IMG/VR virus record: IMGVR_UViG_3300010354_000714
Span: 1-22,709 of that record
Source: a virus
Length of the DNA: 22,709 bases
Direction: 5' to 3' (one strand)
Shown: in pieces, positions 1 to 18,718 of the stretch
Position numbering within the stretch: the stretch's first letter is position 1
How the letters are laid out: each line of letters begins with the position of its first letter
Notes under the pieces: generated by a model
What the model was told of the DNA's origin: nothing
Seen by the model: only the letters and a program-made list of their open reading frames with translations
Databases searched by the model: none
Made by a program: the position numbers and the translations under genes

Positions 1-1266
1 AATAAAAAAGTACAGCAATTTTTTATGGAAATGGCTGAAAAAATTGATCTATATTCAGTTGTATATGGAGCAGCACTAGAATTCTGGAAGATGGGAGAAA
101 GCTTTCCATATGCAGAGCTTGATGAGAGTATGGGCGTTTGGAGCAGGATTACAATCTTAAATCCAGATTTTACACATGTTAAAAAATCTATAATAGGAAA
201 TCATTCACAGATATCTCTAAGACCTGATGCCGGTCTTGTTAGACTCGTAAACTCTAATTTGCCGGCAGATGTAGCGATGAAGCGCTATATTCCTTCTCAT
301 ATAATTGACTATGTAAAAAAGGGTATGAATATACCATTAGATGATTTTAATATTTCACATTTAAAGTTATTAAGCTCACCATATGATATTAGAGGTACAT
401 CAATTATTGTATCTATATATAAAGATTTAATGTTATATGACAAACTTAGAGAATCAAAATTTGCACAAGCAGATGGCATGATAAATCCATTAACACTAGT
501 TACACTTGGTGGAGATGGCGATTATAGAGCAACACAATCTGATATAGAAGCATTCAAACAAGTACTGGAAGAAGCTCAGTATGATAAAGACTTTAAAATA
601 GTTACTCATTCTGGTGTTAAAATAGAAAGAAATGGATTCAGTGGCGCAACAATGGATATATCTGCAGATATTACACATATTGTTGAAAATATTTATGCCG
701 GATTAATGACACCAAAGGCATTAATGGATCAGGAAGGTGCAACATATGCAAGCTCTTCTGTTGGTCTAGATGTATTAAGACAGAGATATGATGTGTTTAG
801 AAACATGATTAAAAAATGGTTAGAAAGAAAAATATTTGCACCAATTTGCGAATTACAAGATTTTTTTGAATATAAAGATGGAGAAAAAAGACTTCTAGTT
901 CCAACTGTTGATTGGAATCACATGAATCTATACGATATGAATGATTATGTTCAACAAATTGGTCAATTCGTATCTAATAAACAAATTTCTTTACAAACAT
1001 TGCATAGAAGTCTTGGTTTATCATATGAAGAAGAAAGAAGAAGAATTAGGGAAGAAATGTTTGATGATCAGATTTTTGCAAAAGAACAACAGATACTAGG
1101 AAACATGAGGCTGTCTGAAATACAGGGTCTAGATCCAGTAAGAGGTGTTCCAGAGCCACCAGAAGGAACTGCTGGTGCTCAGCCACAAGAAGCTGGAGGA
1201 GTAGGCGGAATGGAAGGCGGATTACCAGGTATGGGTGGACCTCCACAGGCAGAGTCACCACAATAA
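1..1266 (+). CDS. Phage portal protein, 5' end missing
   Basis: Portal protein: the dodecameric ring at the capsid vertex through which DNA is packaged and ejected, and to which the terminase and tail attach. The frame is open from base 1, so the N-terminus lies outside the window. The first internal Met is at base 25 and the visible part is 421 residues. Portal-like features are a mixed alpha/beta core, the segment KFAQADGMINPLTLVTLGG, a helical stretch that includes VGLDVLRQRYDVFRN and the motif WLERKIFAPI, and a charged helix (EEERRRIREEM). The last 40 or so residues are a Gly/Pro/Glu-rich disordered tail, common at portal C-termini. A gene with its own GGAG site follows 12 bases after the stop. 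The family call rests on recalled motif patterns and on the protease and capsid genes downstream; no search was run. Confidence 0.8.
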   Translation, partial: NKKVQQFFMEMAEKIDLYSVVYGAALEFWKMGESFPYAELDESMGVWSRITILNPDFTHVKKSIIGNHSQISLRPDAGLVRLVNSNLPADVAMKRYIPSHIIDYVKKGMNIPLDDFNISHLKLLSSPYDIRGTSIIVSIYKDLMLYDKLRESKFAQADGMINPLTLVTLGGDGDYRATQSDIEAFKQVLEEAQYDKDFKIVTHSGVKIERNGFSGATMDISADITHIVENIYAGLMTPKALMDQEGATYASSSVGLDVLRQRYDVFRNMIKKWLERKIFAPICELQDFFEYKDGEKRLLVPTVDWNHMNLYDMNDYVQQIGQFVSNKQISLQTLHRSLGLSYEEERRRIREEMFDDQIFAKEQQILGNMRLSEIQGLDPVRGVPEPPEGTAGAQPQEAGGVGGMEGGLPGMGGPPQAESPQ

Positions 1267-3200: not shown

Positions 3201-3492
3201 AGAATTAATAAAAAAAGCGCAAATACTGGAAAAAGATCCAGTTTATGTAGCAACAGAACTAAGTAAAATTATAAAAATAATGTTAAGCAGAATGAGTCCA
3301 GAATCTCAAGTAAAATCATTTATAAACGTAAAGGAAAAATTAAAAGATTTTAATACAATGGAAATAGCAGGAAAAAAGAATCCTGGTGGAGCTTCGATTG
3401 GAGTTAGTTTAGGTCTTGTAAAAAATGTATTAAATGGAAAAGATCCTTATTTTATAAATGTTGTATTACAAGAATTAATAAAGAGGTTATAG
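3190..3492 (+). CDS. Small helical protein (100 aa), unknown function
   Basis: The product begins MSDEELIKKAQILEKD. I chose the ATG at 3190 over an upstream TTG at 3154 because a GAGG lies at 3177-3180, nine bases before the ATG, and because it limits the overlap with the preceding gene to 11 bases. The protein is mostly amphipathic helix, ending with a Gly-rich turn (KKNPGGASIGVSLGLVKN) and a final helix. There is no signal peptide or membrane segment. Its stop shares one base with the GTG start of the next gene. I do not recognise the family; the context is the portal-protease interval of a phage head module, where neck or completion proteins often lie, but nothing specific supports that role. 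Confidence 0.6.
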   Translation: MSDEELIKKAQILEKDPVYVATELSKIIKIMLSRMSPESQVKSFINVKEKLKDFNTMEIAGKKNPGGASIGVSLGLVKNVLNGKDPYFINVVLQELIKRL

Positions 3493-5609
3493 TGAATAAA
3501 TTATCATGGCCATATATAGGTAATCCTGAAAATGAAATGGGGTCAATGAAAAATAATGGAAACTATAGAGATTTCATGGAAAATAGCTATGAAAGATTGG
3601 ATTCTTTAAATCCAGAAAAATACACAAGTACAGGTAATGAACTACCAACCGCCACAATATCTGGTGGTGTTATTTTCAAACCACAAGAAGATAAATTAGA
3701 GGAAAATATGTTTTTTGACTTTTTATTTAATGACGATGGCCTTACCGATAACTCAAATATCTTAGTAGTATCTGACGATGTAGATGAATTAGAAACATAT
3801 GCCTCACCTAAATATAATATTTTTTGTTTAACAAAAACAACAGATTTATTTAGTGAAAAAATAGTTACAACTGCTGGAGATTCAAAATATTTTAAATTTA
3901 ATAAAAAATTTGATTTATTTTATATTAAAGAAGATAATTTTGATAATTTAAAATTATCACTTTTTAATTTAAAAGATCAATTAAAAAATATATCTTATGG
4001 ATATATAAATACTAAATTAGATAATAATAGTCTAAAAAAGGCAGCAAGCTTTGCCAATATAGATTATGATAAAATTAAAAATATTTCTAATAATTTTTAT
4101 AGAATTTCATTTAATAACTTAAAAAAATCAAAAATAATAGGAGTTTTAGATAGAAACGGCGATACAAAAGCTGCTTTTATATGTGATGTGGCAGACTCAT
4201 TTGAAAGTAAAAAGTCTGGACTACAAGCATACTCTAGCATAAACAATAGTTTTGGATTATTATTTCCATATAAAAAAGCAACAGATGTATCTTACCATAT
4301 GGGATCTGTATCTTATCCTATTGATATAATATTTTTAGATGATAATTCAATTATTAAAAAAATAGAACGCAATATACAGCCTGGAAGTCCTGGATTGTTT
4401 TGCTGCTCAGGTGTAAAAAATGTATTAGAAATAAAAGGCGGAATGTCAGGTTTATTAGATATTAATACTGGTGATTCTATATTTATAGATTCTGTAGATT
4501 ATATTGCTCCAAATAGTATTGAAAAAGATACTGCAATTAAAACTTCAAAAATTCTTTCATCTGCAGTACATAAATATGGAAACGTATCTATAAGAATAAA
4601 GGGTAATGAAGAAATAAATAAAAGTGCTAGCTTAATTAGTGTAAAAAAAGATATTTGTATAGTTGATCTTGATGCATTTTTAAATTATAATGTAAAAATT
4701 CACAAATTAAGTAATTATAATTATTCAAATGTTAGAAACATAATTTGCTCAAGTCCAAAGACTATTGATAATAAATTTAAAAATGAATCTGTTATAAAAT
4801 ATGCTTCAGATTCTATAGATTCAGAGTATTGTTTGCCAGCAACATTTACCTCATTTAATGAGGCTTTTAGATCAAATGTAAAAACATCATTAGGTGAAAT
4901 ATTAGGATTTAAAGGAAAGGTTGTTTTGGCTACAACAAATAATCTAAATTGGGAAAAAATTGCATCAATTTTAAACTTTAAATCAAAAATATTATTTAAT
5001 AAAAATTTTCCATTTTTTGAAACATTATTATATCATAAAGATGATTCATTATATCATGCTGCAAAAAATAGATATGCAAATAATGATTTATACTTTTTAA
5101 ATAAAAAAGCAGGCTTTCCAATTCCAAAAGAAGATGTAGAGAAGGCAAAAAAAGCAGAAGAGTTATTTAAAAAAACAAATAAAGATTCTGAAAAACTTTT
5201 AGATAATTTAAAAAAGAATTTATCTGTATATCAAAACATACAAGCAGATAAAGAAAGGATTAAGAACAGCAAGCACGAATATAATGAATCTGTAAAAAGA
5301 AATACAGAACTACTTAAAAAGATATTAATTGACATCAAACAAGCACTCAAAATAATGAATGAAATAAAAGATATTTCAAATACAATTGAAATTATAAGTG
5401 CTGTCGCAAGTGCTATAATGAGATCATCTGAGATAATAAAAGATATATTTGATTTAGTAAATTATATAGAGGCTGATGATTTTATTCAAAGATTAACAGA
5501 AAAGACATCAGAAGCTGAAAAAATGTTTTTAGATTTAGATAATTCAAATCAACGTATGATAAACTATATAAATACTGATATTTTAGGTGTATTAATAATT
5601 ACTCAATAA
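3492..5609 (+). CDS. DUF192-domain-containing phage protein (705 aa)
   Basis: The gene starts at GTG (3492), preceded by AAGAGG at 3481-3486 with five-base spacing; the stop of the previous gene overlaps it by one base. Residues about 213-335 match the DUF192 pattern: a GL motif, NSFGLLFPYKKATDVSYHMG, PIDIIFLDDNSIIKKI, a CCSGV turn, VLEIKGGMSGLLDI and TGDSIFI. DUF192 proteins are normally small, stand-alone, often exported bacterial proteins of unclear function, so embedding in a 705-aa phage protein is unusual. Residues about 85-205 alternate hydrophobic strands and helices (NILVVSDDVDEL, FDLFYIKED), weakly suggesting an alpha/beta fold that I cannot name. The C-terminal 200 residues are Lys/Glu-rich coiled coil with a less polar helix (ISAVASAIMRSSEIIKDIF). 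LKKAAS (about 181-186) and INKSAS (about 375-380) resemble motifs seen at boundaries in the scaffold-like protein. Role unknown; a structural or internal head protein is plausible from context. Confidence 0.65.
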   Translation: MNKLSWPYIGNPENEMGSMKNNGNYRDFMENSYERLDSLNPEKYTSTGNELPTATISGGVIFKPQEDKLEENMFFDFLFNDDGLTDNSNILVVSDDVDELETYASPKYNIFCLTKTTDLFSEKIVTTAGDSKYFKFNKKFDLFYIKEDNFDNLKLSLFNLKDQLKNISYGYINTKLDNNSLKKAASFANIDYDKIKNISNNFYRISFNNLKKSKIIGVLDRNGDTKAAFICDVADSFESKKSGLQAYSSINNSFGLLFPYKKATDVSYHMGSVSYPIDIIFLDDNSIIKKIERNIQPGSPGLFCCSGVKNVLEIKGGMSGLLDINTGDSIFIDSVDYIAPNSIEKDTAIKTSKILSSAVHKYGNVSIRIKGNEEINKSASLISVKKDICIVDLDAFLNYNVKIHKLSNYNYSNVRNIICSSPKTIDNKFKNESVIKYASDSIDSEYCLPATFTSFNEAFRSNVKTSLGEILGFKGKVVLATTNNLNWEKIASILNFKSKILFNKNFPFFETLLYHKDDSLYHAAKNRYANNDLYFLNKKAGFPIPKEDVEKAKKAEELFKKTNKDSEKLLDNLKKNLSVYQNIQADKERIKNSKHEYNESVKRNTELLKKILIDIKQALKIMNEIKDISNTIEIISAVASAIMRSSEIIKDIFDLVNYIEADDFIQRLTEKTSEAEKMFLDLDNSNQRMINYINTDILGVLIITQ

Positions 5610-5861: not shown

Positions 5862-8800
5862 ATGTTTAAAAAAGTTTGTTATTCTAACGAGCCAAAACTT
5901 AGAAAGGAATCTCCAGAAAAAGTTTTAGCATCACAAGACATTGTTGACAGATTAAGTAAGTTAGCAAATAACGTCAAGGCAATTGCTCCAAAATCTGATG
6001 ACTTTTTATATTTCTCGATCATATTTCTAAAAGCTGCAGAATCTGCATATTTAGATGAAACTGGAAATATAAAGAAACTTGCGAATGGTGAGGATGCATG
6101 GGGCTTTTTTGATGAGAATTGGAAGTGGCATGGAAATGTAAAGCCACATCGTAATAATAATTTTGATATATTTCCAGAATCAGAATTAAAAGTCGCTGCA
6201 AAGAAATGGATAGGAATGCCATTATGCAGAGATCACGAATCATCATCAGTTGATGGAATTAGAGGCATTATTCTTGATGCACATTATGACGAAAAATTTA
6301 AACAAGTCATTGGACTATGTGCTTTAGATAAGGTCAATTATCCAGATCTAGCTAGAAAGGTTGAGACAGGCCTAGTTAGATATGGATCAATGGGTACAGC
6401 TGTAGAGACTTCTGTATGTTCAGAATGTGGAAATAAGGCAGCAACTCAAAAAGATTATTGTCAACACGTTCTATCGAAGTCTGCTCACGGTGAAATAAAC
6501 GTAGGTTTAAAGCCAATAGAATATTCCCTTGTAGTTCAGCCAGCAGAGCCAGGAGCTATCCTATTAAGATGTCTGGCTTCATTAGAAGATTATAGAAAAG
6601 AATTTATTAACTATGGTGTACAAAATGTTGATGAAATGCTTGGAAAGCTGAGTGAAAAGCAAGCATCTCACCTAGAAACAATAATGAAGACAGCCTGCGG
6701 TGAAAATGGCTGCAGTATACCACAGAGAAAGAAAATTATAATAAGTTTCCTATCAAATAATGGTATTATTACAGAATCGGACATAAAAGACTCTGGTAGT
6801 CACAATTCTTCCGACATTAAATCATTTGCGTATCAGGAATCTGGTATGGATACTGAGAGATTAACAAGTGGCGAAGATGGTTTTAAAGATCAGCTTTTCG
6901 GCACTTCTTCTGAATATTCTATGCTTGGTACTAAAAACCCAGACAGTGAAAAAGACTTTGTAGCAACTAGTGACATTGTAAAAGCTGTAGATAGAACTTC
7001 AACTTCCGCCCCGCTTACATCTGTGGCTGGCGAAAAAGATTCTAATAATTTATCAATTAACCAACTATTGGAGGATATAATGAGTGAAAGAAATCTTAAG
7101 AAAAGAGCAGAGCTCCGCAGACGTATAGCTTACATGCAGGGTGGAGACTCAGTAGATAACAAAGCATATCGTGAGCCTGGTGATTTCAAATCAGATAAAA
7201 TGTCTGAGACTGTTAGAAATACCCAGGACAGACATCTTCTTCAGGATGGAGATATGGAAAAGCTAACTAGAGAAGATATGGCTCTAAAAGAAAAACTCTC
7301 TAGAGCAGAACTAAGAGAGGCCAGACTCAAGAGAGTAGCTTACATGCAGGGAGGCGATTCTGTTAGTGATAAAAACTACCGTGAACCAGCAACCTATAAG
7401 TCTGATAAAATGTCTGAGACTGTTAGAAACACTCAGGATAGACATCTTCTTCAGGACGCTGACATGGATAAGCTAACCAGAGAAGATATGGCTCTAAAAG
7501 AAAAACTCTCTAGAGCTTCTGCAAAAAATGCTACATTAAATAAAGTTGCATATACTGGTCCAGCCTTAACTACTAGATTTTCTATAAAAAGAAACCAAAA
7601 CGGCCAGATTAATAAAGCTGCTTCAGTTTTTGAAGTATTCTCTGGAAATAAGAGAGTAATTGCAGCTACAGCTGGTCAGATTTTTGGAACAGATTTAAAT
7701 GATAACTGGGATTGGATTAAGAGCGAACAATATGGAAGAGAGGTTTGCAAGCATATTAGAGCAAGCGGAATTCCATATGTATCTGGATTACTAAAGTCAG
7801 CACAGGAGGCTCCTCCAGCCCCTATGCCTGCCGCACCAGCAGGAATGGATGCCGCTCCAATGGGCATGGATGCCGCTCCAGCAGGCGCAGATGTTGGCAT
7901 GGACCTTCCACCTCCTCCAGATATGGGCGCCGCTCCAATGGGCGACGAGATGCCAGAAATGGAGGCACCAGATATGCCAGAGGAAGAAGAAGATTCTGAA
8001 AAGAGTGAAGATCCAGCATCTCAAATAGACGAAGAGCTAACTGGCATAGAAACTGCAGTTTCTACAGTTAGAGATCTTGTAAATGAACTAAAAGATAAGC
8101 AGGAAGCTGATGTAGACGTAAATGTATTTACTGGCAAGAAAAAAGAGGGTGAAGAGGATGAAGGTAAATTAGCTCTATCAAGAGAGCTATATAGAGGCTT
8201 AAGAAAGTCCTATAGAGATTTAGATAGCTCTGCTGATGAATTAGCTATGGTTGCAGAAACTTATGAAAATATTTCAAGACTATCTTCCTCACAGAGAAGA
8301 GAATTCTTAAAGCTTGCAAGAGATGCAAGAAGAGATTCTGCTAGAATTCTTGGTGAAGCAAACTCTCTAATAAGAATAGCAAAATCATTTGTAAGTTCTT
8401 CTAAGCTAAAGAAATCAGCTCAGATGGAAAACCATATGAGAGATGATATGGATCTAGAATACAATGATGCTATGGATATGGGAATGGATGAGGCAGTAGA
8501 TTATGTTGACTATGAGGATGATGCCATGATGGACTCTGCAGATAGCCTAATGCATGGCGACGAGATGGAGGCAGATGCTTCAGATCTCGTTGCAGCAGCA
8601 ATGGATATGAGAAGAGCTCGCAGAGAAGCTATAGTAAAGCAAGCTGAATCTAGCGTTCTATCAAAAAGAGCTTCTGCAAGAAAGACTCTATTAAAGAAGG
8701 CAGAAGAAGCAATGGCTGAAGATATGTCTGAAGATATGTCTGAAGATATGTCTGAAGATATGGGAGATAAGACAGATGATCTAAATGACATGAGCGCACT

Positions 8801-9248
8801 ACATGCAATGAAAGGCATGCAGATGGGCATGAGATCTCAGAATGATATGCCATCAGGCATGACTGCTGGACCTCAGATGTCAAATGAATTAAAAGCATTC
8901 GATGTAAGAGCATCTGCATTAAATGCAAGAATGCAGCAGAAAAAAGCTGAAGAAGAAAGAGAATCATACAGACTCAAGCTTCGTAGAGCTTATGATGTTG
9001 GAATGGATATGCAAAGAAAAGGACTCCTACCAAACACTAAGACCGCACTAGATAAGCAGGTTGATGATATTATGTCTTTTGATGACAAAGCATTTGAAGC
9101 ATTTAAACGTAGCATTGCAAATGCAAAGCCAGTTAGAAATGTAAAAATAGCATCAGATCTAGGTGGCGTAAATGTTGGAGTTGAATCTGATTCTCAGGCA
9201 CAATCTGGTCCAATGACTGCAGATAAACTACTATCACTTTGGGACTAA
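5862..9248 (+). CDS. Prohead protease fused to a scaffold-like region
   Basis: Probable head maturation protease and scaffold in one 1128-aa chain. GAGG at 5853-5856 precedes the ATG. Residues about 40-245 show the HK97/T4/herpes-type protease pattern: a His in CRDHES (H125) and a Ser in VRYGSMG (S176), each in a predicted strand, with a strand-rich stretch between. Just after S176 comes a zinc-binding element, CSECGN to DYCQHV (C186, C189, C200, H202), then EYSLVVQPAEPGA. The rest looks like scaffold: a 70-residue tandem duplication (424-563), a compact segment (about 585-645, including VFEVFSGNKRVIAATAGQIF), an Ala/Pro/Met-rich linker (about 648-715), coiled coil (about 715-865), an acidic Met/Asp-rich tract with four EDMS-type repeats (953-968), and a conserved-looking C-terminal segment (LRRAYDVGMDMQRKGL). 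Candidate cleavage motifs (LNKVAY, INKAAS, LLKSAQ, LKKSAQ, IVKQAE, LLKKAE) sit at the boundaries. The protease call is from motif recognition; scaffold and self-processing are inferred. Confidence 0.7.
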   Translation: MFKKVCYSNEPKLRKESPEKVLASQDIVDRLSKLANNVKAIAPKSDDFLYFSIIFLKAAESAYLDETGNIKKLANGEDAWGFFDENWKWHGNVKPHRNNNFDIFPESELKVAAKKWIGMPLCRDHESSSVDGIRGIILDAHYDEKFKQVIGLCALDKVNYPDLARKVETGLVRYGSMGTAVETSVCSECGNKAATQKDYCQHVLSKSAHGEINVGLKPIEYSLVVQPAEPGAILLRCLASLEDYRKEFINYGVQNVDEMLGKLSEKQASHLETIMKTACGENGCSIPQRKKIIISFLSNNGIITESDIKDSGSHNSSDIKSFAYQESGMDTERLTSGEDGFKDQLFGTSSEYSMLGTKNPDSEKDFVATSDIVKAVDRTSTSAPLTSVAGEKDSNNLSINQLLEDIMSERNLKKRAELRRRIAYMQGGDSVDNKAYREPGDFKSDKMSETVRNTQDRHLLQDGDMEKLTREDMALKEKLSRAELREARLKRVAYMQGGDSVSDKNYREPATYKSDKMSETVRNTQDRHLLQDADMDKLTREDMALKEKLSRASAKNATLNKVAYTGPALTTRFSIKRNQNGQINKAASVFEVFSGNKRVIAATAGQIFGTDLNDNWDWIKSEQYGREVCKHIRASGIPYVSGLLKSAQEAPPAPMPAAPAGMDAAPMGMDAAPAGADVGMDLPPPPDMGAAPMGDEMPEMEAPDMPEEEEDSEKSEDPASQIDEELTGIETAVSTVRDLVNELKDKQEADVDVNVFTGKKKEGEEDEGKLALSRELYRGLRKSYRDLDSSADELAMVAETYENISRLSSSQRREFLKLARDARRDSARILGEANSLIRIAKSFVSSSKLKKSAQMENHMRDDMDLEYNDAMDMGMDEAVDYVDYEDDAMMDSADSLMHGDEMEADASDLVAAAMDMRRARREAIVKQAESSVLSKRASARKTLLKKAEEAMAEDMSEDMSEDMSEDMGDKTDDLNDMSALHAMKGMQMGMRSQNDMPSGMTAGPQMSNELKAFDVRASALNARMQQKKAEEERESYRLKLRRAYDVGMDMQRKGLLPNTKTALDKQVDDIMSFDDKAFEAFKRSIANAKPVRNVKIASDLGGVNVGVESDSQAQSGPMTADKLLSLWD
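7131..7550 (+). repeat. Tandem 210-bp in-frame duplication
   Basis: There are two direct copies of exactly 210 bp, at 7131-7340 and 7341-7550, encoding residues 424-493 and 494-563 of the protease-scaffold protein. Over the first 59 residues of each copy 51 are identical (counted by eye), including YMQGGDSV, KMSETVRNTQDRHLLQD and LTREDMALKEKLSRA; the last 11 diverge. A third VAY occurs in register at 7551 but the similarity then stops. Each unit begins just after a basic helix ending [RK]-[IV]-A. Confidence 0.9.
8718..8765 (+). repeat. Four 12-bp GAAGATATGTCT repeats
   Basis: GAAGATATGTCT occurs three times in perfect tandem, followed by a fourth copy ending GGA. It encodes EDMS x3 plus EDMG within the acidic Met/Asp-rich part of the scaffold-like region. 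A likely replication-slippage site whose copy number could vary between relatives. Confidence 0.9.
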
Positions 9249-9258
9249 GGAGGCTTTC

Positions 9259-9849
9259 ATGAGAATAAGAACAAATGGTGATGCTATTGCTCAAGAATTT
9301 TTAAAAATTATGAATAAAGGTTCTAAGCTAAATAAAACCGCATCATTAGACGAGGCAGCAGATTCTTCATGCAAGCTTCCAACAGAGTTATCTGGTGGTG
9401 ATACTACTGTTGCACTAGATAATTTAGAGGATGAGTCTTTAAGTGATGATGAACTAGGTGGCCTACTATCTGGATCTCATAATCTTGGAAACGAGTCTAT
9501 TGTAGATCAAATAGATGAATCATTTGATAGCACTGTTGATTCTGTAGAGGATTCATCAAAAGATTTACCAAAAGAAGCATCATTATCTTATCTATCTCCA
9601 AAAGGTATGAAGATAATGCATGGTCTTGGGAAAATAGCTGCAAGCCTAAGAGTTAAAGGTGAAGATTTTGCGGCAGATGTTGTTGAAACTACTGCAATGT
9701 CAATAAGCGGAGACTTAAAAAAAGAAGCAGCAGAAAAGAAATCTGTAGTTTCTAATCTCCAAAAAGTTGCAAGCAAACTTGATAGCTCTGGTGATAAATT
9801 TGCTGGTGATTTAGTTAGAGCTACAATTGAAAATATTATTAAAAAATAA
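9259..9849 (+). CDS. Internal head-type protein with leader and helical repeats
   Basis: A 196-aa protein ten bases downstream of the protease-scaffold stop, with AAGGAGG at 9247-9253 as ribosome binding site. The N-terminus, MRIRTNGDAIAQEFLKIMNK followed by LNKTAS at residues 24-29, resembles the start of the 676-aa protein at 11119 and may be a targeting or propeptide sequence. Residues about 30-105 are acidic and Ser-rich, probably disordered. The C-terminus holds two copies of a helical motif: LGKIAASLRVKGEDFAADVV and LQKVASKLDSSGDKFAGDLV. I do not recognise a named family. Its size, acidity and position between the protease and the capsid genes fit a scaffold or internal core protein, but that is inference. 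A strong terminator follows. Confidence 0.6.
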   Translation: MRIRTNGDAIAQEFLKIMNKGSKLNKTASLDEAADSSCKLPTELSGGDTTVALDNLEDESLSDDELGGLLSGSHNLGNESIVDQIDESFDSTVDSVEDSSKDLPKEASLSYLSPKGMKIMHGLGKIAASLRVKGEDFAADVVETTAMSISGDLKKEAAEKKSVVSNLQKVASKLDSSGDKFAGDLVRATIENIIKK

Positions 9850-9885
9850 TTTTTAAAAATATTTAAATATAGCTATTAATAGTAT

Positions 9886-9920
9886 AATAAAGGGAAGAGG
9901 AATCTTCCCTTTATTTTTTT
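9886..9920 (+). terminator. Intrinsic terminator after the protease block
   Basis: A perfect 12-bp stem, AATAAAGGGAAG (9886-9897) with CTTCCCTTTATT (9904-9915), and a six-base loop, followed by a run of T to 9920. It closes the transcription unit ending with the 196-aa protein, 36 bases after its stop. Confidence 0.88.
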
Positions 9921-9938
9921 ATTTTATCAAGAGGAAAA

Positions 9939-10631
9939 ATGTTAAAAGTTATTCATAGTGGAAATGCAATGCCAATGAGTACTGCTGTTGATCCAACTGC
10001 AGAATTTCAGCCGGGTATGTTTGCACAGCTTGGATTAATAGGAAATGATATAGTAGCAACTGTTAGTGATGGAACTGCACCACTGGGAATTATTGATGAT
10101 GCCAGAACTACATCTTTTACAAAATCACAAATTGATGAAATTATTTATATAAATGTAAATGCAGTAGAAGTAGACGCAAATGGACAAAGAGTTAATTCTG
10201 AGGAAGTAACTGGTGTTTTAGAATTTCCAAATATTTTAGATAGTAGTTTTGTAAGTACAGTATCTGTAATATTAAATAAAGTAAATGGAATAATAAGTGT
10301 TCCAGTTGGAACTCCATTAAATCATGATGCAGATTCAGATGGAGTTTTTGATAGTTTTAGAATAATTGTTAGTTATGTATATAGAGTAAGCGGAATTCCT
10401 GGTGACGATACTACTATAGGTAGTGGAAGAGTTACAATACATTATCAGAGAGGTTTTTATGCAACAGACCAATTTGATACAACTCAAGTTTACCCCGTTA
10501 ATGCAACATTATATGTTGGAATTGATGGAAGGTTAACAACAAAACAGCCGACAGATACACATCCTGGTGTTGCAATTGTTACTGGCCCACCAACATCTGC
10601 TATGGGCACTTTGGAATTTTTATTATTATAA
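9939..10631 (+). CDS. Putative capsid decoration or virion structural protein
   Basis: A 230-aa protein with AGAGGA just before the ATG. It is predicted to be almost entirely beta-strand with frequent Gly, Asp and Thr, and has no membrane segment. The segment GTAPLGIIDDARTTSF and the C-terminal pattern YVGIDGRLTT, PGVAIVTGPPTS and GTLEFLLL are of the kind seen in phage head decoration or stabilisation proteins and other virion beta-sandwich proteins. It lies directly after a terminator and upstream of the capsid genes. An aspartate-rich loop, LNHDADSDGVFDSFR, could bind calcium but I would not insist on it. The family assignment is tentative; a baseplate or head-fibre protein is the main alternative. 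Confidence 0.45.
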   Translation: MLKVIHSGNAMPMSTAVDPTAEFQPGMFAQLGLIGNDIVATVSDGTAPLGIIDDARTTSFTKSQIDEIIYINVNAVEVDANGQRVNSEEVTGVLEFPNILDSSFVSTVSVILNKVNGIISVPVGTPLNHDADSDGVFDSFRIIVSYVYRVSGIPGDDTTIGSGRVTIHYQRGFYATDQFDTTQVYPVNATLYVGIDGRLTTKQPTDTHPGVAIVTGPPTSAMGTLEFLLL

Positions 10632-10675
10632 AAATATAATATACTAATTATGTTTTTATAATTAAAGGGATACTT

Positions 10676-11122
10676 ATGTCAAATTGGTCAAAAGAAGATA
10701 AGGCCGTATATAATAATAGTGAAATTTTTCAGGAATTTGAAAAAAGAACTATTGAAAATATTTTTAGATTAGATATGTTGAGAAAAAAAGCTCAACAAAA
10801 TGCTAGTCAGTCAACTCTTAAGGCAACAACTGATGCTGCAAAGGCTGCAACAGAAGCTGTAAGAGAGCTTGGCAAAGTAAAAAAAGAAGTAGGTCTGGCT
10901 GAAGATCAGCTATCAAGTAATTCTGATGATTATATGATTAGTGGTCAATCTGAAGAGCTCTTTAATTCAATGATGAAAAATAAAATGGATGATGATATTT
11001 CTGATACAATTATTAATGAATTAATGGAAATGAAAGAAGCTGCCATTGCAGAAGGCAATATAAAATTGGCTTATAAAATAGAAAGAACATTAGACGAAAT
11101 TTTATCCGTGGAGGTTATATGA
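10676..11122 (+). CDS. Small coiled-coil head-module protein
   Basis: A 148-aa helical protein with AAGGGA at 10665-10670 and a four-base ATGA overlap with the next gene. The N-terminal 40 residues (NNSEIFQEFEKRTIENIF, then LRKKAQ at 35-40) resemble the leader of the following 676-aa protein (NKSEIF, then LNKTAS at 28-33). An Ala/Lys/Glu-rich coiled coil follows (about 45-85), then an acidic Ser/Asp stretch, and finally a helical hairpin, INELMEMKEAAIAEGNIKLA followed by YKIERTLDEIL, of the type repeated in the 196-aa protein. Function unknown. Coupling to the 676-aa coiled-coil protein suggests they act together, perhaps as internal head proteins or chaperones. Confidence 0.55.
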   Translation: MSNWSKEDKAVYNNSEIFQEFEKRTIENIFRLDMLRKKAQQNASQSTLKATTDAAKAATEAVRELGKVKKEVGLAEDQLSSNSDDYMISGQSEELFNSMMKNKMDDDISDTIINELMEMKEAAIAEGNIKLAYKIERTLDEILSVEVI

Positions 11123-13149
11123 GAATAAATACTTCAAATAAATCTGAAATTTTTGATATATATTCTCAAGTAATGGATAGATATAATAAAAAATATTCTT
11201 TAAATAAAACTGCTTCAACAACTAGCGGCCTCCTTGGGGTAATTACAGAAAGTGCAAGACTAAATACAAAATATTCTGCTAAACTAGCAGAATTTGGCAT
11301 AAAGAATATTGATGAACTTAATGTTCTCTTAAATAAAGCTAAAAGTGTATTAGAAGAAGGTAAAGCAAACAACCAAAAAGAAGCATTGGAAGTAGTAATA
11401 AAAGAAGTAACGAAAAAAAATCCTATTCCTCATAAACTTGATGAATTTATAATACTATTAAAAGAAATAGAAGAAGATCAAAGATCTGCCGCAGTCAGAG
11501 CTTCAGGCGAAGCCGCAGCCGAAGCTATAAAACCAGCTCTGAGTGATATTTCTAGCACAATAAAAACCGTAACCGAATCTGTTAGTAAGTTTTCAAAAGA
11601 TTCTGCAGAACAATTGAAAGAATTAGCTGAATTAATGAAAAAAAATCAACAACTAAATGACCAATTAATTGAAAATTTTGATAAAAGTTTTAGTTCAATA
11701 TCTTCAAAATTAGATAGCACTATAAATTACTCAATATCAAAATTAGAATCTACTATAAAAGCTTCTGATGAGGTAGGTAAAAAAGAATTAACAGAACAAC
11801 TAACTGCATTAAAAGCGCTACAAAAAGAATTAAAAGAATCATCAAGTAAAGTAAGCTCAAACCTTTCCGCTGCAAAGCTTGCAGATAATGTAGCTTCTGC
11901 AGCAAAATTTGCAAAAAAAGCTTATGGCTTTATTTCTGAAATAATTAACATATTATTAGTTGTATCTGGAGTTGGAGCTGCATACTGGTATCTTACAAAA
12001 GATAAGACTGCAGAGGAAGATGTAAGAGGAAGTACAGGTGAATTTAGTAGACCAGCTACTCAAACAAGAGATGATGAAGATCCTCTAAATATGGATCAGA
12101 CATATCAGAGAAGACCGTCTAGTAGGGTTGCAGCAATTTTAGATGATAAAACAAAAAGAGTAGATTTTTTTGATAGCTTAAAATATATGGATCCAGATAG
12201 AGCTGAATCAGCTCTGGAATCTATAGCAAAACATTATAATGCAACAGGTTATATAAAACTATCTACACCAGTTGTAATAAATAATGAAACAATAGAATAT
12301 GTCTTTCCAATGGCATTTAGAGGTGGTAGGGATCCGGTTAGAGATACGGCAAGAAGAGCTGCAACTGAGGAATATTTTATAAACCTATATACACAAGATT
12401 CTATGAACAATAGAAGAATAAAAACAAGAATAGAATCTACAGTTGGATCATCTGATGCTCAAAAAATAGCAAACTATGCTTTTTCAGTAGTAGCTGGAGG
12501 AGCATTATTCTCAGGAAAGGGCACCCCATTCGGATTAGGAGATAGGGGCAGAAGATATGGTAGAGGCAAGAAGAATGTTGGAGTTTCAGATTTTGGAATA
12601 GCTGGAACATCTAGAAGAAGGATGACAAGAGAGGAAAGAAGAATGGCAGAGAGGGGTGATATGAGAAATAATAATCAAGACTTTATATTAGATAATTCTA
12701 TGGATTTAGATGATCCAATGAGTGCATTTGCATCAGGAATAAATGAAATAATAAAGAAAAATGCAAAAAATATTGATTTATCTACTAATAGTAATGATAA
12801 ATCATATAACTTTGATAAAAAAGCAGATAAGTTTTCAAATCGTTATTTTAAAGATGCCGTTAAGGATCTTGAAGATGATGAGTTTATGAAAGAATACTAT
12901 GCAGGTTTTTCTAAATTGCATAATCAAAAATCAAAAAAACAAAAAGAAGACTATAGCAAACTTTACGACCTTCATGATGAGACTGGATCGGAATTAATTC
13001 ACAAATCTCATCCAAAAGCTATTTCAGTAGCTGAGGCTATAGGTGGTGGTGGTCTTGTTGAAAATTTAAACGAAAGAAGCAAATCAATGCAAGATGCTGC
13101 TAAAAGGAATCCTTCTGGCAATTATCGAGCAAGATACGTTTCTAAGTAG
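11119..13149 (+). CDS. Coiled-coil protein with one membrane segment, possible internal/ejected protein
   Basis: A 676-aa protein with GGAGG at 11110-11114. Residues 1-33 form a leader-like sequence ending LNKTAS that matches the start of the 196-aa protein at 9259. Residues about 35-265 are long Lys/Glu/Ser coiled coil, with SKLDSTINYS followed by SKLESTIKAS showing an internal heptad-like repeat. A hydrophobic helix lies at about residues 272-293 (IINILLVVSGVGAAYWYL). After a charged linker, the C-terminal half includes a second folded part (about 340-470), a Gly/Arg-rich basic stretch (FGLGDRGRRYGRGKKN) and a Lys-rich tail. A membrane segment next to coiled coil in a phage head module suggests an internal protein ejected with DNA or a tape-measure-like protein. 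Tape measures usually lie in tail modules, so I favour the former. Not recognised as a named family. Confidence 0.5.
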   Translation: MRINTSNKSEIFDIYSQVMDRYNKKYSLNKTASTTSGLLGVITESARLNTKYSAKLAEFGIKNIDELNVLLNKAKSVLEEGKANNQKEALEVVIKEVTKKNPIPHKLDEFIILLKEIEEDQRSAAVRASGEAAAEAIKPALSDISSTIKTVTESVSKFSKDSAEQLKELAELMKKNQQLNDQLIENFDKSFSSISSKLDSTINYSISKLESTIKASDEVGKKELTEQLTALKALQKELKESSSKVSSNLSAAKLADNVASAAKFAKKAYGFISEIINILLVVSGVGAAYWYLTKDKTAEEDVRGSTGEFSRPATQTRDDEDPLNMDQTYQRRPSSRVAAILDDKTKRVDFFDSLKYMDPDRAESALESIAKHYNATGYIKLSTPVVINNETIEYVFPMAFRGGRDPVRDTARRAATEEYFINLYTQDSMNNRRIKTRIESTVGSSDAQKIANYAFSVVAGGALFSGKGTPFGLGDRGRRYGRGKKNVGVSDFGIAGTSRRRMTREERRMAERGDMRNNNQDFILDNSMDLDDPMSAFASGINEIIKKNAKNIDLSTNSNDKSYNFDKKADKFSNRYFKDAVKDLEDDEFMKEYYAGFSKLHNQKSKKQKEDYSKLYDLHDETGSELIHKSHPKAISVAEAIGGGGLVENLNERSKSMQDAAKRNPSGNYRARYVSK

Positions 13150-13189: not shown

Positions 13190-13849
13190 ATGGCATTAAA
13201 ACTATTACAGCCTGGCAAAGAACCAGCAGGTCAGTTCGACCTAAAAGATGGAGTCACCCTTTATGGCGGTGAATGGGTAAATATGGAAACAGTAGCAGCA
13301 GGTTCTGATCTAGCTGCAGCAGACGTATCATTAGTTGGTCCATACAGCGGATCTAATCTAGTTAGATTTAATCCAGGTGTAAAGACTGCGCTAAATACCT
13401 CACCAACCCCACATACAGTAGTCTTTGGCGGCCTAGCTGATGAAGGTACAACTGGATATGGAACATCATTTGGAACAATTATTGGTACAGCAGTTGGTAA
13501 AGGTACAGGCTTTGGCGCACAGGCAACTTCCGGCGTTATCACTGTTGGGCCACAGACAACTGCAGGATCTGGAAAAGTTACCGTATGGTCTGCTCCAGGT
13601 ATTTATGGTGTTTCTGGCGCTCCAGCAACAGGTTCAGCAGCTCCATTAAGCGCAATGGTTGTCAATGAAGCTGTATACTCAAATTCATCAGGCTTCTTAG
13701 GAGATTCAGGCATAGTAACTGCAACTAGCGCTCAAGTTGGCATATCTCTAGGCGCAGTAAGAGATTCTTCATTAGTCTCAACAACTGCAACTGCAGCAGG
13801 CGAGTCCGCTGAAACTGAATTCTACGCACTATACCTATCAGCACTATAA
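13190..13849 (+). CDS. Putative capsid decoration or stabilisation protein
   Basis: A 219-aa Gly/Ala/Thr/Ser/Val-rich protein with AAAGGA before the ATG, ending 18 bases before the major capsid gene. It opens MALKLLQPGKEPAGQFDLKD, then VTLYGGEWV. Most of the rest is predicted beta-strand with a Gly-rich central segment (GTGFGAQATSG). No Cys, no membrane segment and few charged residues: the composition of an exposed virion beta-protein. Codon use is richer in C-ending codons than in most neighbours, as in the capsid gene, consistent with high expression. An adjacent, similarly expressed partner of the capsid protein is most simply a decoration or capsid-vertex protein, but I see no decisive motif. 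Confidence 0.45.
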   Translation: MALKLLQPGKEPAGQFDLKDGVTLYGGEWVNMETVAAGSDLAAADVSLVGPYSGSNLVRFNPGVKTALNTSPTPHTVVFGGLADEGTTGYGTSFGTIIGTAVGKGTGFGAQATSGVITVGPQTTAGSGKVTVWSAPGIYGVSGAPATGSAAPLSAMVVNEAVYSNSSGFLGDSGIVTATSAQVGISLGAVRDSSLVSTTATAAGESAETEFYALYLSAL

Positions 13850-13867: not shown

Positions 13868-14908
13868 ATGTCAAACATTTTCAATACACATGGTGAAGTA
13901 AACGCAGCCTCCGTTCAAGATGCTCTTTCTGCTATAGTAAAATATGCAAGCATCATTGAAGACCTACAGCCAAGCTCTTCTGCTCAGGCAATGGCAAGCT
14001 CTCTTTCTGATGATCAGAGAGATGAAATGATCAAGCAAGCCTTACTAACTTCAGAAGGCAAAATTGCATTAGGTCAAGCAATGGCTAACCCAATTCGCAG
14101 AAACTTAGATTACCAAGGCGTAGCAAGAAAGGCCCTAGTTGTAGATCCTCTACCACAAGGCGCTCTACCTGTCTACGATCGTGATATCGACGTAGCTGCA
14201 GTTGTTATATCCTCCAATGGTACCGCCCCAGAATCTCGTGTTTTTGGTGATAGAGTAACCATCCCAGAGTTTGAGATCGTATCAAACCCAACCGTTAGAA
14301 TCGCTGAAGTTAGAAGAAGAAGATTCAACGTCATTGATCGTGCTCAGCAAAAGGCTCGTCAGGAAATCCAGGCACAAGAAGACGCAAACGTATTCGCAGC
14401 CTTAAGATTTGCTGGTGATAATAATCAGGGTGGTGAAAACACTGCTGTTTCCCTAGATGCAGTAGGCCCATCTGGTGGTCCATCTGGTGCGCCATTAGGA
14501 GCTCTAACAAAGTCTGGTATGCTAGGCTTAAAGAAGCAGATTGATCGTTGGGACTTAGTAACCTCCAAATTCTTCCTAAATATTAATCAGTTTACTGATA
14601 TTCTAGATTGGGAATCTGCTGGTGCTGCCGGTGCATCTGGCGTTGATCCAGTTACCCAAAGAGAATTACTACAAACTGGTCTATATGGTCACATTTTTGG
14701 TGCAGATATTATCGTATCAAAAGTTGTACCAGCTGGTGAAGCATTTGCTTGTGCAGATCCAGAGTTTGTCGGCGTCATGCCAGTCAGACAGGATATCGAA
14801 GTTCTACCTGCTGATGAGCCAAAACAGCTCAAACTAGGCTGGGTTGTTAACGAAATCATCGGCATCGGTATCGTTAACCCAAGAGGCGTATCTTACGGTT
14901 CTTTCTAA
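13868..14908 (+). CDS. Major capsid protein (HK97 fold)
   Basis: A 346-aa major head protein, the lattice subunit of the capsid. GGAG lies eight bases before the ATG. Residues 1-80 or so are helical and rich in Ala/Ser/Gln/Asp (SAIVKYASIIEDL, SSLSDDQRDEMIKQALL), resembling the scaffold-like delta region that prohead proteases often remove. Then comes YQGVARKALVVDPLPQGALP followed by VYDRD, the start of the mature-type core in many phage capsid proteins. Later features are RVTIPEFEI, a long spine-helix-like segment (RVRRRFNVIDRAQQKARQEI-type), a Gly-rich loop, and a C-terminal GIGIVNPRGVSYGSF. Codons are clearly optimised (CGT for Arg, many C-ending), as expected for the most abundant protein. 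A strong terminator follows. The removal site of any N-terminal region is unknown. Confidence 0.85.
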   Translation: MSNIFNTHGEVNAASVQDALSAIVKYASIIEDLQPSSSAQAMASSLSDDQRDEMIKQALLTSEGKIALGQAMANPIRRNLDYQGVARKALVVDPLPQGALPVYDRDIDVAAVVISSNGTAPESRVFGDRVTIPEFEIVSNPTVRIAEVRRRRFNVIDRAQQKARQEIQAQEDANVFAALRFAGDNNQGGENTAVSLDAVGPSGGPSGAPLGALTKSGMLGLKKQIDRWDLVTSKFFLNINQFTDILDWESAGAAGASGVDPVTQRELLQTGLYGHIFGADIIVSKVVPAGEAFACADPEFVGVMPVRQDIEVLPADEPKQLKLGWVVNEIIGIGIVNPRGVSYGSF

Positions 14909-15010: not shown

Positions 15011-18000
15011 ATGCCTGTTCAAAAATACTATAATATACCATTTATAGGTGAAAAATTAAAAGAATATAATAAAGTTTTTGACTCTAAAATTTTTAATATT
15101 AAATTTAAAAATAAAATAACTGGAAGCATTGAAGATCACAATTTAAATGATTTATTTTTTGAATATGTAGACATAACAAATAAATATTATGAAAAATTTT
15201 TATTTATTAGGATGTCTAATTATAACAATTCTAATATGTTTTTTGAAAAATTTTTAAATTCATTTGGAAAACATGGTATAGATTATAGTTTTTCACCATA
15301 TAAATTTGATGAGTTGTATTTTGAATTTAATCCATTTTATAAAAATTATTTTTTTAAATATATTGATTTATCTATAGCTAAATCAAATGAGCTTCAAAAT
15401 TTAGAAGAAAAATCAGAAGAAGAAAAAAATATTTTTTATAATGAATCTATGGAAATTTATAATAATTTGATATCTAGTATAGACAAGCTTAGAGATGATA
15501 TTATAAATATATATTCTAATAATAAAAACTCTAAACCTTTTATGATATCTAATGCTGATGATTTTGCAAAAAAAGTATTTAATTATTCATCATTTGATTC
15601 ATTGATTGATTCAGTTAATGTTTTTTTTGATATATTATATAGCAGAAATATTGTAAATATAATTAATTTAATTAATGAAAGATTTGGTGAAAAAAATTTT
15701 ACAAATAAACTATTTATTGAAAATATAAATAAAGAAATCCTCAATCCATCTAGTTACCCAGCAATAGGATATTATTTTAATGATAAGCCACAAAGCATAA
15801 TTCTAAATGCTGATTACATTAATTTTAATAGAATAAAAAATCTTCAAATTTTTAATTATTTTTTAACTTTAAATAAAGATGAGTGGATTTCAGAAGCATT
15901 AGTAAGTTTTGTTAGATTATTATTAGATCAAAAAAAACAAGAAGATATTGATTTAGTATTTATTAAATATGGAGATATATACATTAATAATGTAACTTCT
16001 AAAGATTTAGAAAATATTGATTTATTATTAAATAAACTTAAAATAAATTTTAATGATTTTTTAACTTATGAATTTTTTACAAATAAAAATAATAAAAAAA
16101 TTATTAATTCAATTGAAAATTTAGTTTCTTATGCGCATGATATTGTATATCCACAAATAATTTCTATTTTTTCAAATTCAATAGAAAATCTTAAAAATAA
16201 ATATATAAAAAATTTAAATTTACAAAATGATATTATAGATGATTTATTTTATCCTTTATATTCTAAAAATATTAATTCAAATTATTTATATGAAATTAAA
16301 TTTTTAACAACTAACCCTGCTAATAAAAATTCAATTCTTTCAAGGATGTTTATTGAGAATAAAGAATTTCTTTATTCAGTTAAAAAACAATTATCATTTT
16401 TTCCATCATTAAATATAAAAGGTACTTATTTTGAAATATTAAAAAATATAATTGACTTTAATAAAATTAAAGAAAATATAAATATTTTATTAAAATCTGA
16501 TAATAAAGAAATAGATTTGCTTCCGGCGTTTGACGATTATTTTTTAAGCATAAAAAATGAATATTTATCTAAAATAGAAAATATATATCTTAAAGGAGAT
16601 TTAAATTTAAATAACATAGTTGAATTAACAGCCGCAGATATTATATCTAAAAAAATTTTTGATATAATCAAATACATAGATGAGGACGAATACGAAGATG
16701 AGGATGAAGATTTTGAATATGACGAATTAGATACGACACCATCCGCTAGTAAGATTTATAATAACGTTCAAAACTTGAATCTTGTTTATTTAAAAATATT
16801 AAAATTTTCATCAAGAATAATTCTTTTAAATGGAAGAAATTATAAAGAATTTATAGAAGCAGAAAAAACAAATATTAAAAAAGAACCTACTGATAATAAA
16901 GAAATTGATGTAAATAATATAAACAAAGATAATGAAGTTTATAAAACATTATCTAAAATAATTTTAAATAATTTCAAAAAAGAAGGAGAAAATATAAAAG
17001 AAAATAAAGAAAATAGTTTAAATATTAAAATTTCAGAATTTTCTGATGAAACTTTATCAAACACATATATAACAAAAAAACTTTCATTTGAAAAAATATC
17101 CATATTATTAAATAATTTATATTTAAAAAATATTAATTCAAATATTATAGATACTTATTCTTTTTCTGAATTTTTGCATAATTTTAGACAAATTTTATTA
17201 GATAAAGATAAATCTTTAAAAATATTTAATTTTAAAATATATAAAATTTTATTATATTGGGTAAAGTTATTCTTATCTGAAAATGAATTAACTTCTGAAA
17301 AATTACTAGAAGATAATATTTTATTATTTTTAGAAAATATTTTGCTTATATTAAATATAATAGATAGTAATGCAACACTTAGAGCATCTGTATATAATTA
17401 TTTTAGTACAAATTCAATGTTATATAATTTTGAAGAAGATTTTATTAAAAAAAGTAAATATTCTAAAATAGAAACATTTAAAAACCTTTCTTCTCTTTTG
17501 TTTTTTTATCATAATTATGATTCAAGAGAATATTCTTCATTAAATCTTTTGATAAAAAAATCAAAATATTTAGACAAATTATATTTAAAACATTATCAAT
17601 TATTTTTAAAAAATTTTATTGAATTTTATTCAGTATTAAAAAAAGAAGAAATTAACTTTTTTGAATTAAAAGAAAAAATGTATAGTTTAATAGATGAGCT
17701 TTCATCTGAAACTAATATTGGAAAAGATAAAGTAGATAAACTTTTATCAAAAAATGATATAGAATCAATTTTATATTTTAACATGCAGTTTGATAAAATA
17801 ACTTTAACTGCTTTTGATTTTGATAATGCATTAGATTCTATGGGTGAAGTTTTTGACAAAAAATTAGTTTTATCTATGGATAGAGTTTTGTCAACATATA
17901 ATCAAATAGAAAGTATTAAATACTATATGTCTTATGCAAAGCCAAAAGAAGATATAGTTCTAGATAATAACTACTTATTTGATGCAAATAATAATTATAA

Positions 18001-18718
18001 ATTTAGATTTAGAACACTAGGAAATCTAGATCCTCAGCATTTTACAATTGGTGTAGAAATTGATTGCTGTCAAAGAATCGGAGGACCAGGGCAAGGCGCT
18101 GCTGTTGATTCATTTGTAAACTCAAAAGCAAGCGTTATAATACTAGAAATAAGCAGCGATGATAAAAATTGGTATGGTATAGCACAATCTTACTTTCATG
18201 TTGCCGATCTTGATGGTAATAAAATATTTATACTAGATAATATAGAAGCAGAAAAAAGAACAAATGATTATTTAAAAAGTTTAATTGGTTTTAACTTTGT
18301 TGAAGTATATGCAATTCTTGCAAAAGAACTTTTAAAAAAGGGTTTTAGCAAAGTTTTGTGTGGCAAGGATCATTCAAATGTAATAAATGAATTAGAATCT
18401 AGTTTTAAAACTATAAAATTAAAATCAGATCCAAGAAAATTTGAAGTAAAAAATATACCCAATGAATTTATATATACTGATTTTGATCCAAATAATTCCT
18501 ATGACTTAAGTGATCCAAACTTTAAAGTTCCAAATATAAATGGAACAATGTTTCTAACATCATCAAATTTAAATAAAAATATTTTATTAAAATTTTCAAA
18601 CTATATACTTTTAAAAAATGTAAATAATTTGAAAATTTTAAAATTAGCAAATTATTTATACAAAAATAATTTAACAGAATTTTCAATAAAAACATCGTTA
18701 TTAGAGAGGATTAAATGA
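15011..18718 (+). CDS. Giant AT-rich protein with C-terminal GNAT-like CCQR domain
   Basis: A 1235-aa protein with AAGGA six bases before the ATG. The first 950 or so residues are Asn/Lys/Ile/Phe-rich, mainly helical and very AT-rich at DNA level; arginine is encoded essentially only by AGA/AGG. An acidic patch lies at about 555-578 (DEDEYEDEDEDFEYDELD). I do not recognise this part. Residues about 998-1140 differ in composition and look like a compact alpha/beta domain: RFRTLGNLDPQHFTIGVEID leads into CCQRIGGPGQG (C1019, C1020), then strands (ASVIILEIS, WYGIAQSYFHV, KIFILDNIE) and a helix, VYAILAKELLKKGFSKVLCG. The order of paired strands followed by a helix resembles a GNAT acetyltransferase core, and a CCQ-G motif occurs in some GNAT-like domains of large mobile-element proteins; this is from memory. 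Coupled to the next gene by ATGA. Function unknown. Confidence 0.5.
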   Translation: MPVQKYYNIPFIGEKLKEYNKVFDSKIFNIKFKNKITGSIEDHNLNDLFFEYVDITNKYYEKFLFIRMSNYNNSNMFFEKFLNSFGKHGIDYSFSPYKFDELYFEFNPFYKNYFFKYIDLSIAKSNELQNLEEKSEEEKNIFYNESMEIYNNLISSIDKLRDDIINIYSNNKNSKPFMISNADDFAKKVFNYSSFDSLIDSVNVFFDILYSRNIVNIINLINERFGEKNFTNKLFIENINKEILNPSSYPAIGYYFNDKPQSIILNADYINFNRIKNLQIFNYFLTLNKDEWISEALVSFVRLLLDQKKQEDIDLVFIKYGDIYINNVTSKDLENIDLLLNKLKINFNDFLTYEFFTNKNNKKIINSIENLVSYAHDIVYPQIISIFSNSIENLKNKYIKNLNLQNDIIDDLFYPLYSKNINSNYLYEIKFLTTNPANKNSILSRMFIENKEFLYSVKKQLSFFPSLNIKGTYFEILKNIIDFNKIKENINILLKSDNKEIDLLPAFDDYFLSIKNEYLSKIENIYLKGDLNLNNIVELTAADIISKKIFDIIKYIDEDEYEDEDEDFEYDELDTTPSASKIYNNVQNLNLVYLKILKFSSRIILLNGRNYKEFIEAEKTNIKKEPTDNKEIDVNNINKDNEVYKTLSKIILNNFKKEGENIKENKENSLNIKISEFSDETLSNTYITKKLSFEKISILLNNLYLKNINSNIIDTYSFSEFLHNFRQILLDKDKSLKIFNFKIYKILLYWVKLFLSENELTSEKLLEDNILLFLENILLILNIIDSNATLRASVYNYFSTNSMLYNFEEDFIKKSKYSKIETFKNLSSLLFFYHNYDSREYSSLNLLIKKSKYLDKLYLKHYQLFLKNFIEFYSVLKKEEINFFELKEKMYSLIDELSSETNIGKDKVDKLLSKNDIESILYFNMQFDKITLTAFDFDNALDSMGEVFDKKLVLSMDRVLSTYNQIESIKYYMSYAKPKEDIVLDNNYLFDANNNYKFRFRTLGNLDPQHFTIGVEIDCCQRIGGPGQGAAVDSFVNSKASVIILEISSDDKNWYGIAQSYFHVADLDGNKIFILDNIEAEKRTNDYLKSLIGFNFVEVYAILAKELLKKGFSKVLCGKDHSNVINELESSFKTIKLKSDPRKFEVKNIPNEFIYTDFDPNNSYDLSDPNFKVPNINGTMFLTSSNLNKNILLKFSNYILLKNVNNLKILKLANYLYKNNLTEFSIKTSLLERIK

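Follow-up and report, generated by a model that had tools for sequence, protein, structure and literature searches.

The stretch of viral DNA analysed here in full (22,709 nucleotides, the window) is a 22.7 kb virus fragment that holds the head-morphogenesis module of a phage-G-like jumbo phage (Table 1). Among cultured phages, Bacillus phage G is the closest relative. The major capsid protein (MCP) of the window is 49% identical to that of phage G, the portal 29% and the protease 31–32%, and the order portal, protease, decoration, MCP is common to both, with the protein at 13190 occupying the same place as phage G gp26, annotated as ‘capsid decoration’. Based on this homology of MCP, portal and protease and on the synteny, we place the window with the phage-G-like jumbo phages. 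A scan of viral contigs returned 80 MCP relatives, several of which lie on contigs of 150–335 kb. The relatives used, whole or nearly so, are G001 (335 kb), G002 (317 kb), G003 (236 kb), G004 (222 kb) and G005 (211 kb), and the comparison phages are T4, phiKZ and two distant relatives, Tunturi_5 and LR745208, each represented by most or all of its genome.

Table 1. Features of the head module and their positions in the window; a slash marks a predicted cut.
Feature	Position	Strand	Remarks
Portal	25-1266		phrog_16240; incomplete at the edge of the window, ~145 more N-terminal residues in relatives
Head-module protein	3492..5609	+	M.K.[SA]WPY start, three internal sites, DUF192 domain (PF02643, E 2e-17)
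Head maturation protease with a long scaffold-like tail of low conservation fused to it, 1128 aa	5862..9248	+	PHROG profiles
LSKLAN, residues 31-36, predicted self-processing site ahead of the catalytic domain	5952..5969	+	K33/A35 invariant
Catalytic domain, residues 98-240, candidate catalytic H125 and S176	6153..6581	+	Both invariant
Scaffold-like tail	6609..9245	+	[LI].K.A with K at 414, 561, 585, 645, 851, 926, 935, 945
Small acidic core protein with leader	9259..9849	+	Motif in 22/22 orthologs, residue 16-35
Predicted propeptide MRIRTNGDAIAQEFLKIMNKGSKLNKTA, residues 1-28, predicted cut before S29	9259..9342	+	Sequence and ortholog leaders
Leaderless, highly conserved protein, contrast case	9939..10631	+	0 sites in 18 orthologs
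Coiled-coil-like head-module protein	10676..11122	+	Leader residues 1-39 ending LRKKA/Q; weaker motif support
Large coiled-coil head-module protein with leader	11119..13149	+	Motif in 25/29 orthologs
Predicted propeptide, residues 1-32, ...SLNKTA/S33	11119..11214	+	Sequence and ortholog leaders
Leaderless decoration-like protein, contrast case	13190..13849	+	0 sites in 51 orthologs
Major capsid protein	13868..14908	+	phrog_2522, E 2e-69
Predicted MCP propeptide, residues 1-27, ending IVKYA/S28	13868..13948	+	Conserved IV[KR]YA[SA]

The first-pass annotation had proposed that the proteins at 9259 and 11119 begin with a similar leader ending in LNKTAS, and the motif is found exactly where it was placed, at residues 24–29 and 28–33. 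The LRKKAQ assigned to residues 35–40 of the 10676 protein is likewise correct, and the NxSEIF element said to be common to the 10676 and 11119 proteins is present (NNSEIF/NKSEIF). The capsid protein at 13868 carries IVKYAS at residues 23–28, and the general leader motif across the window proteins is [LI]-x-K-x-A, or [LI].K.A in pattern searches. Each of the assigned starts has a Shine-Dalgarno-like sequence in its favour: aaggagg for 9259, aaagg for 10676, gtggagg for 11119 and aaggag for 13868. Outside the leader, no convincing similarity was found between the 9259 and 11119 proteins or between the 10676 and 11119 proteins, and the arrangement is that of T4-type leaders, a short segment common to head proteins that are otherwise unrelated. 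No 6-mer besides LNKTAS is common to N-termini of window proteins, and some shared 6-mer arose in 33 of 2000 shuffles, which gives P ~0.017 for the bare coincidence. Since the match by itself is only mildly improbable, the case rests on the relatives.

Non-redundant members of each ortholog family were examined for [LIVMF].K.A within residues 1–55, and the counts were compared with the shuffled mean. The motif is present in all 22 members of the 9259 family (2.3 in shuffles), where its position floats, in 25 of 29 members of the 11119 family (4.4), in 14 of 16 MCPs (1.1), and in 21 of 21 proteases (3.3). The 10676 family is weaker, with 11 of 26 against 3.6; many of its members read [LI]xxK-x-A instead, and its ortholog leaders follow WSKED...SEVFQELE...ILxKKIA. 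In the decoration-like 13190 family the motif occurs in just 1 of 41. MCP homologs with an N-terminal extension keep IV[KR]YA[SA], and the next ~15 residues are variable; the phage G MCP begins downstream of the leader region and is without a leader. The leaders do not form one homologous sequence. As for the motif first put forward, the K-x-A leader is real, but a restriction to LNKTAS is too narrow given the ortholog leaders, the true form being [LI]-x-K-x-A, with Ser tolerated for Ala and Arg for Lys. The three leader proteins named at first also stand, and the same mark is found on the MCP, on the protease and on numerous proteins from outside the head block.

The protein at 5862 matches phrog_18299, head maturation protease (E 4.2e-13, residues 101–206), and phrog_2774 (E 3e-19), and is homologous to phage G gp19. 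It is encoded between portal and MCP (genes at 25, 5862, and 13868), as is the case in phage G. His125 and Ser176 are invariant in 13 sequences, and an alignment with T4 gp21, of low hhalign probability (1.9%, E 0.025), sets His85 and Ser140, which we take to be the catalytic residues of gp21, on these two positions. The PHROG match, the conserved His125 and Ser176, the location and the gp21 alignment support an assignment of the 5862 product as a T4-gp21-like head protease. A PDB sequence search with the protease gave no meaningful match and a Pfam search no match, and an AF2 model of the protease domain, calculated with the phage G row left out of the alignment, has a pLDDT of 45, too low to inform on the fold. 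Group 3 jumbo phages, phage G included, have been described as being without obvious S77 prohead peptidase homologs, and as having XkdF-type or divergent SH-superfamily peptidases (PMC7824862). The 5862 protein contains 12 [LI].K.A sites compared with 1.04 in shuffles. Lys33 and Ala35 of the N-terminal site, about ten residues ahead of the catalytic domain, do not vary among 13 sequences, one of them phage G gp19 (32% identity), and each of 31 protease orthologs has 4–9 sites in the tail, some at fixed columns and others shifting.

This crowding recurs in other core proteins. Summed over orthologs, which are not independent, [LI].K.A occurs 144 times in the tail of the protease protein (15.8 expected, 24 orthologs), 69 times in the bodies of the 9259 family (5.1 expected), 45 times in the 3492 family (8.0 expected), and 53 times in the bodies of the 11119 family (22 expected), whereas the bodies of the MCP, portal, 9939 and 13190 proteins together contain 2 sites compared with 10.2 expected (Poisson 0.002). 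Variants are also frequent in the protease tail ([LI].R.A, 46 vs 12.2; [LI].K.S, 37 vs 14.0), and Arg at P3 and Ser at P1 appear to be tolerated. Because ortholog counts are not independent, a scan was also run genome by genome without presupposing the motif. In this blind scan of a.b residue pairs, K.A ranks first of 400 in the core proteins of the window (50 vs 21, z 6.5), followed by L.K; it is first also in G001, G002 and G005, and second in G003. For the core proteins of T4, the same scan returns I.E at the top and L.E in third place. In these proteins [LI].E is found 34 times (16.2 expected), but 18 times in the shell proteins of T4 (14.8 expected). Since [LI]xE is the established cleavage site of T4 gp21, the method recovers a true head-protease motif.

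For N-terminal enrichment, 400 [LI].X.Y patterns were ranked over the first 50 residues, using as control residues permuted within each N-terminal column. [LI].K.A takes rank 1 in the window, G002, G004, G005 and phage G, rank 4 in G003, and rank 9 in G001, compared with 384 in T4, 149 in phiKZ, 113 in Tunturi_5 and 24 in LR745208. Patterns built from the same residues ([LI].A.K, [LI].E.A and [LI].KA) lack comparable N-terminal enrichment. A general feature of phages, or of jumbo phages, is ruled out, the motif being unremarkable in the four comparison phages. The matches are concentrated in the head module relative to other genes (Fisher: G004, 12/26 vs 1/63, p=4e-7; G005, 2e-4; G001, 1e-4; G002, 0.004; G003, 0.019; phage G, 0.028), with p values that are approximate, as the limits of the module were drawn manually from synteny. 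In G004, one match falls in the tail block, where sheath and baseplate are recognised. Chance matches occur, with about half of the N-terminal matches in phage G being expected; the phage G tail sheath carries FVKTAS at residue 20. Across all N-terminal matches the preference for Ser at P1' is weak (1.3x), and Ser is therefore not part of the core motif. A genome-wide search for leader-bearing proteins, which the first-pass annotation had suggested, finds the motif N-terminally enriched and head-biased in the five relatives and in phage G. The leader is not equally spread in these six genomes, and many proteins from outside the head block are marked as well.

In phage G, the pattern [KRS][RK][LF].[KR].[ASG] is present in the first 30 residues of 28 proteins belonging to 22 families, with 1.5 expected, and this leader type reads MKRLIKK[AS]. 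Several of the ADP-ribosyltransferase-like proteins of phage G have the domain starting directly after the leader, for instance MKRLIRKA-SRILYHGTS in the protein at 178671. Further phage G proteins with a predicted cut after the motif are gp38 (MKRLIKKA/SVYDVPEE), gp20 (...RLKKTA/LMPTQ) and gp19 (...GLVKTA/AKVVKIAP). The motif lies ahead of a PARP domain in G002:256564 (PF00644 at residue 14) and precedes the phage lysozymes G003:97099 and G001:231300, and the leader-type protein G002:196626 has a transglycosylase domain further along. A helical hairpin, LIKLAnhLDerGLvKEADyLDsII, is repeated in G002 and G004, in most cases as a leader, in others inside proteins or near C-termini. T4 Alt is a known precedent for a head-packaged ADP-ribosyltransferase. 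At least 10 ADP-ribosyltransferases have been reported in phage G, and head packaging was proposed for such proteins (PMC9503650). The proteins that carry these leaders outside the head block would be virion cargo.

At the level of sequence, the comparisons establish a lineage-specific and head-biased N-terminal K-x-A motif that is conserved, crowded in core proteins, low in shell bodies, and encoded together with a protease. We consider it likely that the motif reflects a T4-like system of propeptides and packaging leaders in which the specificity of cleavage is new, the cut falling after the Ala of [LI]xKxA. This reading is supported by the head bias, the near absence from the tail block, the core crowding with the shell at chance, the site in the protease, and the T4 control. 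Proteins that assemble into the prohead would carry the leaders as N-terminal propeptides, and the gp21-like protease (5862) would cut after the Ala of [LI]-x-K-x-A, with Leu/Ile at P5, Lys at P3 and Ala at P1. The same specificity would take off the MCP propeptide, trim the leaders of core proteins, and shred the scaffold-like tail of the protease protein as well as the 9259 protein; the protease itself probably self-activates at K33-x-A35. Retention of a protein in the core is most likely due to the helix ahead of the motif. Related phages, including phage G, place such leaders also on ADP-ribosyltransferases and lysozymes, probably for head loading and injection. The earlier proposal of propeptide-type leaders with a motif unlike the small-x-Glu site came through all the computational tests available. 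What we infer from these patterns is cleavage after Ala, the scissile bond, a targeting role of the leader and cargo injection.

Alternative readings differ in how much of this evidence they accommodate. A leader that stays uncleaved and acts as a docking helix, i.e., a short linear motif with K-x-A as the face that binds to the core or inner shell, would fit with the amphipathic-looking helices that the motif ends, and with the occurrence of the related hairpin inside proteins and near C-termini. We regard it as quite improbable, since the position of the motif floats from residue 16 to 35, the sites in the scaffold tails are many and partly turning over while shell bodies are without them, K-x-A is kept in the protease ahead of its own domain, and both the core/shell contrast and the pair scan behave like the true cleavage motif of T4. 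Another reading takes K-x-A as a protease site but the leader as only trimmed, with entry into the head provided by other contacts. This sub-case is compatible with the cleavage part of the propeptide reading, but appears unlikely because the near-identical MKRLIKK leader on unrelated phage G proteins (28 proteins in 22 families) would be unneeded if it were only trimmed off. As for composition, helical N-termini rich in Lys, Ala and Leu might yield the motif by chance, and the modest P value of the exact LNKTAS match alone would allow it. The column-permuted, shuffled and same-residue pattern controls are, however, without comparable N-terminal enrichment, which makes such an origin extremely improbable; on the permutation, shuffle and pattern controls and the ortholog family counts, we reject chance similarity.

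Extending the propeptide reading, it is possible, and we suggest it tentatively, that K-x-A leaders constitute a lineage-wide ‘shipping code’ that loads dozens of otherwise unrelated effectors into the head, where a K-x-A-specific protease removes the label before injection. Among the leaders would be the MKRLIKK[AS] type of phage G and, in the relatives, the hairpin LIKLAxxLDxxGLxKEADxLDxII; the effectors would include ADP-ribosyltransferases, lysozymes, and kinase-like and peptidase-like proteins. If the propeptide reading is true, it provides a rule for where proteins are cut in phage G and in a large environmental group of jumbo phages, by which anonymous proteins become predicted virion cargo and mature N-termini become predictable.

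In an open-access subset of the literature, neither a K-x-A head-protease site nor such a leader was found described, which is weak evidence of absence. For phage P1 DarB, 30 N-terminal residues suffice to send a reporter into the capsid, and the part of that source considered here describes no K-x-A system (PMC9024508). The head module of phage G (gp14–gp27) is similar to that of the window in gene order, in a protease that is 32% identical and has K-x-A, and in KxA-type leaders, but the phage G protease is not fused to a tail, the MCP is without the N-terminal extension, and the leaders are mostly MKRLIKK[AS].

The T4 system, with the gp21 protease, the propeptides of IPI–III, Alt and gp24 and a capsid-targeting sequence, offers parallels in the short leaders on internal head proteins, the MCP propeptide, the digested scaffold, self-cleavage of the protease at its N-terminus, and a packaged ADP-ribosyltransferase (PMC9958956, PMC9503650), and T4 gp21 is activated by loss of nine N-terminal residues (PMC9958956). 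Unlike in T4, the site is [LI]xKxA and not the Glu-based [LI]xE, the protease of the window is fused to a scaffold-like tail, and the leader sequences are unrelated. In SPN3US, gp245 cleaves at an AxE site with Ser preferred at P1', and propeptides are cut several times; the P3-x-P1 spacing of the motif, the multiple propeptide cuts and the preference for Ser at P1' are features of phiKZ and SPN3US with likeness to the present system (PMC10052503). The sites in those phages are AxE or SxE and the propeptides mostly long (111–254 aa in SPN3US), whereas the motif here is K-x-A and the leaders are about 9–40 aa. The head-protease motifs of T4, phiKZ and SPN3US are glutamate-based, and a Lys-x-Ala specificity, if true, would represent a distinct branch beside them.

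The K-x-A leader, a short N-terminal leader ending in [LI]-x-K-x-A at a predicted head-protease site, also begins a protein of the related viral contig G002 that possibly combines opposing ADP-ribose activities in a single polypeptide, as judged from its PARP and NUDIX domains. Kinase-like motifs (GxGxYGxxW/F...LKI) were read by eye in leader-bearing proteins of three other relatives (G005:194860, G003:80080, and G001:249806), for which Pfam gave no match. An exception to the head bias of the motif is the sheath-like protein at 107618 in phage G (587 aa), with FVKTAS at residue 20; its N-terminal sequence points to a probable tail sheath.

Coordinates of the features discussed
Feature	Location	Description
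1128-aa protein	L141:16567-19950 (-), G002:256564-259950	K-x-A leader, PARP (PF00644), NUDIX (PF00293)
Hairpin copies	G002 (L129-L144), e.g. 151994-161670 and 195120	
Hairpin copies	G004 190713-193380	
DUF192 (PF02643)	Window 3492-5609	Residues 232-330 of head-module protein; E 2e-17
Fibre-like protein	Window 19527-21848	Long SEEVARASGDxSLTxRLS repeats
1235-aa protein	Window 15011-18718	AT-rich
ADP-ribosyltransferase-like paralogs	Phage G 35181, 81739, 163172, 178671, 245985, 401788, 446697	KRL-type leader

In G002 and G004, many otherwise unlike proteins carry repeats of a helical hairpin, LIKLAnhLDerGLvKEADyLDsIIKKA, in N-terminal, internal, or C-terminal positions, and no Pfam model covers it in the carriers scanned. 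The C-terminal repeats of the 9259 family, orthologs of the small acidic core protein in the window, are weakly similar to this hairpin.

Within the window, DUF192 is embedded in a head-module protein. The minus strand is open across the repeats of the fibre-like protein, and the resulting ORFs (302 and 270 aa) are probably a by-product. The 1235-aa protein has no PHROG match, and only two relatives were detectable among the fetched loci.

In phage G (L003, L145-L169), the paralogs at 402412 and 420403 lack the KRL-type basic leader (MKRLIKK[AS] type), the form that the leader mostly takes in this phage. The other ADP-ribosyltransferase-like paralogs, with an HGTS motif, begin immediately behind it.
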